A DNA stretch of 64,000 bases from Mitsuaria sp. GD03876 (lineage in GTDB: Bacteria > Pseudomonadota > Gammaproteobacteria > Burkholderiales > Burkholderiaceae_C), in NCBI RefSeq assembly GCF_029840635.1, contig NZ_JAOCCU010000009.1, positions 62,001 to 126,000 of the forward strand. The letters run 5' to 3'. A program made the translations under genes and the position numbers. The notes below the pieces were generated by a model. That model worked only from the letters and a program-made list of their open reading frames with translations. It did no database searches and was not told the origin of the DNA. Positions 1 through 28,241 of the stretch are shown piece by piece; position 1 is the stretch's first letter; every line of letters begins with the position of its first letter.

Positions 1-5688
<5,688 letters not shown>

Positions 5689-26348: not shown

Positions 26349-26490
26349 GTGATCTCCCTGATCGACGAAGCGTCGATTGAAACGGGAGCGAGCGTACCCG
26401 CCATTCGTCACTCCCGCGGGAGGGGAGGGGCGGCGACAGGCCGGACGGGCAGGGAGGGTCCGCGGGCGCGCCGGTCCCGGCGCGCCGCGG

Positions 26491-27006: not shown

Positions 27007-27035
27007 TTGCAACGCCGCAGGCATCTCACTAGACT
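27007..27035 (+). promoter_or_regulatory. Sigma-70-type promoter of RNA copy 1
   Basis: TTGCAA at 27007-27012 and TAGACT at 27030-27035, spacer 17. The same elements, and similar DNA further upstream (TTGTCG at 26991), precede copy 2. Confidence 0.65.
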
Positions 27036-27041
27036 TCGCGC

Positions 27042-27175
27042 CTCAAGATCTACCTGGGCGGAGTGTGATGGGTAGAGCCACCCGAGCAATCGGGTTCCAG
27101 CTGGACTGGTAGTTCGCGGTCAACGCGATAGAGACCCCCGCATGCGGCGGCCCCTTCGGGGGCCGTCTGTCTTTT
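27042..27175 (+). ncRNA. Candidate structured small RNA, copy 1
   Basis: No open frame is shared with copy 2, but about 150 bp is 85-90% identical by eye, with the changes concentrated in loops and one variable segment (27056-27070). Predicted elements in order: a 5' segment beginning CGCCTCAAGATCTACC, a hairpin CCCGA-GCAA-TCGGG with a GNRA loop (27081-27094), a hairpin TCGCG/CGCGA (27114-27128), and a terminator with a UUCG loop. Start is inferred about 7 nt after the -10. Length about 134 nt. I know no family match. A regulatory RNA is likely; a protein-binding RNA is also possible. Confidence 0.6.
27148..27175 (+). terminator. UUCG-loop terminator of RNA copy 1
   Basis: CGGCCCC-TTCG-GGGGCCG (27148-27165) followed by TCTGTCTTTT. 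It also faces the 3' end of the convergent minus-strand gene. Confidence 0.8.
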
Positions 27176-27189
27176 CAGCTCTGCGGCTT

Positions 27190-27834
27190 CTATCCGGACA
27201 CCTTCCGCCGCAGCGAGGTGGCTTTCAACAAGTTGAGGAATGCGATTCGGCGACGAAGTCGGAATCGCTGTTGTTCGGATAGCTCCACGGCATAGGCGGA
27301 CTGGACCTGCAGGAGCAGACGACCTTTCCGCTTGTTGTCGCGCGAGATCTCGAAGAAGACGACGTACTGGTGGCCGGAGGGATTCTGGCCGTCGACGGAA
27401 GTCGATGTGACGAAGTTCGGCGGGTTGTCCCGTGCAAACTGAATGGTTCGACGATGCAGGTCACGCACGAGCACTGGCAGATGGCGGCGTGAATGCTCGT
27501 ACCGGCGTTCGCATAGCACTCGTACTTCACGGCCATCGTCAAAGAGCTCCGCAAGTGGGATCAGACGGCGAGGACGACCATCGCGCGCAAGCGATTTGGT
27601 GAAGCAGTGAGAAGAGAACAGGACGACAACGGTCACTTCGAAGCCCAACCCTGGATCGACGCGGAAGGCAAATGGGTCGAGATGCGACAGATCCCATGGG
27701 TCGCCGCCATGAGAGACCCCCCTGAATCGATGATGGGGGCGCACCAGTTCAATGTGATCGGCGATCGAAACTTCGGTGAGAACTGGGGACTCGGAGGATG
27801 GCCGTGGCTCATCCTCCAGCACGGAATTGCTCAT
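27190..27834 (-). CDS. Hypothetical protein between the two RNA copies
   Basis: A 214-residue protein without a signal peptide or membrane segment. Visible features: an acidic N-terminus, PWDLSHLDPFAFRVD, VVVLFSSHCFTKSL and a basic C-terminal part (RRRIAFLNLLKATSLRRKVSG). GC is clearly lower than in neighbours and Ser/Arg codon use differs, suggesting acquisition. I recognise no family. Its leader can fold over the ribosome site (see the hairpin at 27843). Confidence 0.6.
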   Translation of the reverse strand: MSNSVLEDEPRPSSESPVLTEVSIADHIELVRPHHRFRGVSHGGDPWDLSHLDPFAFRVDPGLGFEVTVVVLFSSHCFTKSLARDGRPRRLIPLAELFDDGREVRVLCERRYEHSRRHLPVLVRDLHRRTIQFARDNPPNFVTSTSVDGQNPSGHQYVVFFEISRDNKRKGRLLLQVQSAYAVELSEQQRFRLRRRIAFLNLLKATSLRRKVSG

Positions 27835-27842
27835 GACGGGAA

Positions 27843-27862
27843 GCCCTCGAAATCAAGAGGGC
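27843..27862 (-). promoter_or_regulatory. Leader hairpin covering the ribosome site of the hypothetical gene
   Basis: GCCCTC (27843-27848) and GAGGGC (27857-27862) form a 6-bp stem with an 8-nt loop. On the minus strand the 3' arm contains GAGGG, the only Shine-Dalgarno candidate for the ATG at 27834. Confidence 0.45.
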
Positions 27863-28071
27863 GGTCATGTTTCCGATGAAGTTCATCTCGAGCGTTGCGC
27901 TCGATCAAAGGTGTCGGGGGTCAAGCAAAACCTGGTTGCGCTGTCGCCAGCCGACCACCCTCAACGAGTCAATTTTCCGGAGACCCTGACTGGGGCTTGC
28001 GTTCGATCGACGCGTTGTTGTCGCAGGAGGCCGCACCGTTCAGCGGGCGACGTGGGTTGTCGACCGGAATC

Positions 28072-28099
28072 TTGCGGAGCGGCCTGGAATCACTAGACT
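28072..28099 (+). promoter_or_regulatory. Sigma-70-type promoter of RNA copy 2
   Basis: TTGCGG at 28072-28077 and TAGACT at 28094-28099, spacer 16; homologous to the copy 1 promoter. Confidence 0.6.
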
Positions 28100-28105
28100 G
28101 CGCGC

Positions 28106-28241
28106 CTCAAGATCTACCCGTGGTGGGGTGAAAAAGGTAGTGCCGCCCGAGCAATCGGGTCCCAGCTGGAATGGGCGTTCGCGGTCGACGCGATAGAGAA
28201 TCCCCGCAATGCGGCGGCCCCTTCGGGGGCCGTCTGTCTTT
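28106..28241 (+). ncRNA. Candidate structured small RNA, copy 2
   Basis: The second copy of the RNA described at 27042. Both stems are preserved exactly (CCCGA-GCAA-TCGGG at 28147-28160; TCGCG/CGCGA near 28179-28193), with the loop of the second stem changed from GTCAA to GTCGA. The terminator CGGCCCC-TTCG-GGGGCCG is at 28215-28232, with a tail of TCTGTCTTT that meets the stop codon of the convergent YhiN-type gene. The interval 27835-28071 between the hypothetical gene and this promoter holds no gene that I can support. Confidence 0.6.

Follow-up and report, generated by a model that had tools for sequence, protein, structure and literature searches.

The 64,000-nucleotide stretch of Mitsuaria sp. 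GD03876 analysed here (contig NZ_JAOCCU010000009.1, positions 62,001 to 126,000; hereafter the window) carries two similar small RNA genes, one on each side of a gene for a homologue of YjaZ, and RNAs of this kind lie next to nearly all YjaZ-family genes examined. Gene and RNA probably form a little-known unit of RNA and protein, which by analogy may work like a toxin with its RNA antidote. The reading favoured here, and held to be modestly probable, is an accessory module that consists of a YjaZ-family gene and a folded partner RNA, present twice in the window, with the RNA restraining a RelE-like protein. The data show the partnership, the hairpins, conservation and the existence of two gene orders; toxicity, direct binding, inhibition and a role for the second RNA copy are inferred. 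The probabilities attached to this and to the other readings overlap, since the readings are not fully exclusive.

The partnership was followed through 48 family genes: seven from the genus, eight from the 17 plasmid records, 17 from genome searches, one from Escherichia coli K-12, ten from genome contigs and five from viral contigs. The initial annotation suggested a possible link between the duplication of the RNA and the arrival of the gene; the RNA is indeed duplicated and tied to the gene, but the gene is no mere passenger, because an RNA of this kind adjoins 47 of the 48 family genes. Thirty-eight of these RNAs were recognised through an alignment or a model and nine by eye alone (L017, L019, L023, L027, L029, L033, L034, L036 and L068). 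Training loci account for 20 of the 38 (17 in alignment A7, where a second motif place in L045 was dropped before counting, and the window, L003 and L032 in alignment A8). The other 18 lie outside training and were found by model R2 (L028, L030, L071, L072, L074, L082 and L085), by model R1 (L026), by Rfam sraL (L018 and L022) or by Rfam sroH (L037, L065, L066, L035, L064, L067, L052 and K-12), with the gathering score reached beside family genes in L018, L037 and K-12 only. The lone family gene beside which no RNA was seen is that of L053, where 330 downstream bases were read and the locus gave no Rfam, R1 or R2 match.

A count of terminators points in the same direction. Of 39 family genes, 23 have an opposite-strand terminator ending at most 60 nt from the stop, compared with 11 of 103 control reading frames from the same loci, a comparison that does not hinge on recognition by eye; the script left out nine of the 48 genes, genes with an upstream RNA among the 39 count as misses, and the long reading frames that served as controls may include some that are no genes. 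Twenty-one of the 23 detected terminators end no more than 20 nt from the stop codon. Model R1 missed the window RNAs, and R2 missed all ten Pseudomonas-type loci in its search. The link between the RNA groups is drawn from the matches that do cross between them (R1 to L026, E 3.8e-5; R2 to L028, E 8e-5, and to L030, E 0.0079), together with the architecture and the protein partner that the groups have in common. One more R2 match, in L020 (1831-1954, plus strand, E 0.014), differs from the RNA seen at that locus and was taken as chance.

The exact conservation of stems in the two window copies was originally read as the signature of selected RNA structure. The hairpins are kept, but these are just two close copies, and the outer pair of P3 is lost in copy 1, a break common to the orthologues in L072 and L074. 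Exact stems in such copies are weak proof alone, because no Rfam match in the window reaches the gathering score and folding of the single sequences gives ordinary energies (z -0.85 and -1.46 for the two copies); the structure therefore rests on covariation among homologues. The RNA is predicted to fold into four hairpins, P1 to P4, of which P2 has a GNRA-type loop in the window copies, and a pseudoknot would hold them together; the P1 stem and the pseudoknot are additions to what was first described. In the window group, whose alignment was fitted to the structure and comprises 13 RNAs (12 from the genus, and L032), paired cells make up 93.8% in P1, 100% in P2, 94.2% in P3 and 98.5% in P4, so that stem-breaking changes, when looked for among homologues, proved to be few. 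Six pairs are changed on both sides in this group (three of the five pairs of P1, two pairs of P2), as are 12 of the 21 pairs in the Pseudomonas-type group of 17 RNAs, counts which are inflated by the relatedness of the sequences. Standard pairs fill 98.0% of cells in the latter group; none of 500 shuffles equalled the observed pairing percentage or covariation score, and pairing falls to at most 44.8% once the partner is slid. The terminator pairs are out of register in the structure of alignments A8 and A10 (43.5% and 38.5% paired) and were excluded as evidence. These compensatory changes support the view that the window RNA is a selected structured RNA, as had been proposed.

The pseudoknot would join the loop of P1 to the segment preceding the terminator. 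In the Pseudomonas-type group it reads CCGGA/UCCGG, replaced by CCAGA/UCUGG in three of 17 RNAs, and a loop-tail helix of at least four pairs can be formed in all 13 RNAs of the window group; in L003 it is GCAAAGU/GCUUUGC, in copy 2 GUGGGG/CCCCGC. When the letters of the tail were shuffled, the observed pairing sum was reached in none of 300 trials in each group (11 and 10 distinct loop-tail pairs). Two results qualify this: tails permuted among the sequences match the observed sum in 302 and 68 of 5000 trials, and the weakest knots, of four pairs, are those of L085 and of copy 1 itself. Because permutations do reach the observed sum, the covariation of the knot is suggestive, not overwhelming, and the sequences lend the pseudoknot moderate support.

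Two gene orders are observed. In 42 of the 47 loci the RNA is convergent with the family gene, and this arrangement, with terminators ending so close to the stop codon, suits a cis-antisense regulator of a type I-like kind, in which converging transcription would yield an RNA antisense to the mRNA's 3' end that lowers expression of the gene; some type I pairs are convergent. In the five other loci (L035, L064, L066, L067 and L052, all sroH matches) the RNA lies upstream on the same strand, where it lacks complementarity to the gene. In the window, copy 2 does not overlap the YjaZ-like gene, yet the second copy is kept in four genomes, and antisense action needs no covarying structure. Pairing between the RNA and the 5' part of the mRNA, the part covered by the comparison, does not exceed what chance would give (21 RNA-gene pairs involving 20 genes, mean z -0.03, with start codons partly guessed), and one of the 21 pairs, that of L003, has z of -2 or lower. 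The same-strand loci and the chance pairing, the latter for the 5' end only, argue against a purely antisense role, which we regard as improbable.

As for the protein, it is a YjaZ homologue and not an equivalog: its match to NCBIfam NF007263 (YjaZ) scores 30.2 bits (E 4.1e-7), below the equivalog cut-off of 324 bits. Seven of the nine members of protein alignment A2 match the same model (best E 2.9e-17), and comparing the A2 profile with K-12 YjaZ gave a probability of 99 (E 2.3e-18). The invariant columns of A2 are, in window numbering, H51, L52, P54, H76, C77, F78, R105, R111, S115, L119, Y157, S179 and A180. The window protein is basic (pI 10.2) and matched no Pfam family above the cut-off; the nine members of A2 gave no match to RelE-superfamily Pfam families at E of 1 or lower, and Foldseek by itself found nothing significant in PDB or BFVD. 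In VIA-align, chains of the RelE/ParE/HigB superfamily are the best structural neighbours of both protein models; the fold resemblance is moderately supported and makes this a candidate RelE-like protein. One member matched KorA in a family library (E 0.0022), and weak Pfam matches also turned up. Purifying selection is indicated by a dN/dS of 0.09-0.27 among the genus proteins, computable in 18 of 21 pairs and with dS mostly saturated. YjaZ is the protein formerly named HtrC; some plasmid homologues are annotated as 'heat-shock protein C', and the NCBI annotation of K-12 says just 'protein YjaZ'.

If the module has an established functional analogue, type III toxin-antitoxin systems come closest, given the RelE-like resemblance, the basic charge, the plasmid spread and the pseudoknotted RNA. 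In type III systems a pseudoknot of the RNA occludes an endoribonuclease, and in ToxIN, CptIN and TenpIN, as here, a pseudoknotted RNA adjoins a small protein gene (PMC5086642). Five of the 47 loci also have their order of RNA, then gene, on one strand. Nevertheless, the module is not a type III member, because tandem repeats are missing (neither window RNA contains a repeat as long as 12 nt), the RNA is served by a promoter of its own and in the window converges on the gene instead of standing upstream in one operon with a terminator between, and it usually lies on the opposite strand; the protein also differs in having no Pfam match. Compared with RelE, ParE and HigB, the modelled proteins are longer (180 and 214 amino acids, against about 80-120 in the listed chains), and an RNA neighbour takes the place of a protein antitoxin. 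By analogy, the protein would be a toxic, RelE-like factor with RNA or the ribosome as its target, and it would be bound directly and inhibited by the folded RNA, as type III RNA antitoxins do with their toxins. Two RNA genes for one protein gene might provide a higher dose of RNA or a buffer against its loss.

The same evidence of association and structure could be expected if RNA and protein formed a working ribonucleoprotein, with the RNA as a cofactor, for example in stress response or defence. Mutants in htrC are heat-sensitive, which also speaks for this reading. A toxin-antitoxin pair is a better fit to the resemblance to RelE and to the family's accessory, partly plasmid-borne distribution, and there was no PADLOC match, so a ribonucleoprotein is considered unlikely.

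The initial annotation knew of no matching family for the RNA. This holds for Rfam, since no model detects the window copies, sroH (RF00372) and sraL (RF01408) included, and the window contains no tRNA or tmRNA; six weak Rfam matches in it were taken as chance, five of them short and the sixth, a minus-strand one, sul1-like (21 bits, E 0.36). It does not hold more widely, because the RNA has relatives beside YjaZ-family genes: the window RNA belongs with these, among them Rfam sroH and perhaps sraL. In E. coli K-12, yjaZ (4189786-4190325, plus strand), whose protein is homologous to that of the window, and sroH (4190327-4190487, minus strand) converge with one base between them. The differences are that Rfam gives sroH a structure of the terminator hairpin alone and that the window has two RNA copies. 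RNAs at YjaZ-family loci from the order of genome G822, taken as Enterobacterales in view of the full sraL (157.5 bits) in that genome, score against sroH 97.9 (L037), 63.0 (L065), 58.4 (L066), 51.9 (L035), 45.4 (L064) and 43.4 bits (L067), and the viral-contig locus L052 scores 36.4; with a cut-off of 80 bits, L037 and K-12 alone among the loci scanned reach the gathering score.

For sraL, two plasmid RNAs beside family genes score 39.7 (L018) and 38.5 bits (L022) around a cut-off of 39, and share with it a P1 loop with CCGG and a CCGG near the 3' end. The K-12 copy of SraL/RyjA (L024 3927-4067, ryjA) differs in converging on soxR and not on a YjaZ gene. Since plasmid RNAs beside family genes match sraL and the K-12 SraL adjoins soxR, SraL/RyjA may, tentatively and judging by sequence, belong to this class of RNAs as an orphan.

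The sraL matches also speak for a trans-acting, base-pairing small RNA of the SraL or SroH kind, the neighbouring gene then being just an evolutionary companion. SraL, treated in connection with sigma-S, is reported to lower tig expression, an sraL mutant having similar fitness (PMC4014581), and SroH is reported to bind kbl, a confirmed target, and was called 'under-characterized' in 2018 (PMC6172242). An RNA copy in L083 without the family gene in the examined stretch also fits. On the other side, an independent regulator need not accompany one protein family in two gene orders, and the groups' sequences are too divergent for cross-detection by R1 and R2 while their architecture is alike; the odds of this reading are put low. 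In other sources SroH has a table row (PMC4606813), sroH shows the lowest conservation among 34 expressed orthologous small RNAs of E. coli and Klebsiella pneumoniae (PMC3415461), and htrC is mentioned (PMC6863780, PMC5864857). The open-access literature searched, from partial texts and with most subscription journals outside its scope, yielded no link between SroH and YjaZ and no toxin-antitoxin label.

A broader proposal, which we put forward tentatively, is that YjaZ and its neighbouring RNA constitute an overlooked, Proteobacteria-wide toxin-antitoxin class with a RelE-like protein and a single pseudoknotted RNA in any gene order, in which E. coli would carry SroH as a resident antidote, while SraL/RyjA would have begun as an antidote and become a regulator after losing its partner. 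SroH and YjaZ would each gain a partner and a testable role. If true, Rfam sroH, tentatively sraL and many unannotated RNAs would form one structural class, which would suggest a route from protein-binding RNA to base-pairing small RNA.

The family is sparse and accessory. Family genes occur in six of 369 genomes of a class sample and seven of 398 of a phylum sample (both including the genome studied), in two of 399 in the order sample around G798 and in seven of 247 around G822, the class, phylum and order samples overlapping, as well as in 17 plasmid records. Four of 16 genus genomes, the present one included, have three full RNA copies, with RNA, gene and RNA at the identical site; a fifth, G1501, has a 33-base RNA match only. 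In L073 and L075 no more than about 13 bases separate the sequence of window position 26416 from that of 28235, so that both the module and its small neighbouring gene are missing at these loci. DNA identity to orthologues is 67-72% for the gene-bearing stretch and about 88-91% for the neighbouring gene. A DNA search with the RNA through 200 genomes of the family found a match in two (the genome itself and one 33-base piece); the sample included one other genus member, and the genus search later picked up the RNA. The same search of plasmids and phages gave no match, the window protein had none among phage records, and scans of viral contigs with the window protein, A5, A4 and L028 found no relative.

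The third RNA copy of this genome, found by DNA search, also converges on a gene, whose protein is 55% identical to that of the window. In G1504 the third copy (L083 1501-1635) is a full RNA with an altered -35 element and without the family gene within 1.5 kb on each side. Both RNAs flanking the gene in L071 (301-437 and 1336-1470) resemble the copy 2 type, unlike those of the window, L072 and L074; gene conversion is possible. Gene copies in L029, L030, L037 and L032 (the last with an internal stop) appear truncated or interrupted and still adjoin the RNA. In L019, an Erwinia plasmid, a gene annotated as a putative phage abortive infection protein (2719-4110) is the next one annotated downstream of the family gene and RNA.

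The layout of the window locus (table 1) agrees with most of what the initial annotation described: two copies at a distance of about 1,065 bases, both of them with a sigma-70-like promoter, a GCAA-capped hairpin, a second hairpin and a UUCG-capped terminator, and each pointing at the 3' end of a minus-strand reading frame. The copies are 82%, 89% and 97% identical over three repeat blocks and match their model with 145.9 (copy 1) and 145.3 bits (copy 2), both being training sequences of that model. Copy 1 converges on the YjaZ-like gene, and 15 nt lie between its end and the stop codon there. The other RNA copies of the genus have comparable -35 and -10 elements upstream, with variations.

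Table 1. Features of the RNA-YjaZ locus, in window coordinates; RNA elements and promoters are predicted.
Feature	Position	Strand	Remarks
Promoter, copy 1, sigma-70-like	27007..27035	+	TTGCAA 27007-27012, 17 nt, TAGACT 27030-27035
RNA copy 1	27043..27174	+	alignments A8/A10; 5' end estimated
Copy 1 stem P1	27050..27075	+	CUACC 27050-27054 / GGUAG 27071-27075
Copy 1 pseudoknot, weak	27058..27141	+	GCGG 27058-27061 / CCGC 27138-27141
Copy 1 hairpin P2	27080..27095	+	GCAA loop
Copy 1 hairpin P3	27097..27109	+	CCA/UGG; outer pair lost
Copy 1 hairpin P4	27114..27128	+	UCGCG/CGCGA
Copy 1 intrinsic terminator	27146..27174	+	UUCG-capped; fold and sequence
YjaZ-like gene	27190..27834	-	214 codons; between the RNA copies
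Inverted repeat CATGAC...GTCATG	27832..27869	-	3' arm contains the start codon of the YjaZ-like gene
Promoter, copy 2, sigma-70-like	28072..28099	+	TTGCGG 28072-28077, 16 nt, TAGACT 28094-28099
RNA copy 2	28107..28241	+	convergent with minus-strand reading frame ending at 28241
Copy 2 stem P1	28114..28140	+	CUACC 28114-28118 / GGUAG 28136-28140
Copy 2 pseudoknot	28123..28207	+	GUGGGG 28123-28128 / CCCCGC 28202-28207
Copy 2 hairpin P2	28145..28160	+	GCAA loop
Copy 2 hairpin P3	28161..28175	+	CCCA/UGGG
Copy 2 hairpin P4	28179..28193	+	UCGCG/CGCGA

The gene between the copies is lower in G+C than the window (58.9% against 71.1%), as had been noted. The inverted repeat at its start is found over the start codon in six of six copies (the window, L003, L071, L072, L074 and L085) and could, by its sequence, hide the start codon of the YjaZ-like gene in the mRNA.
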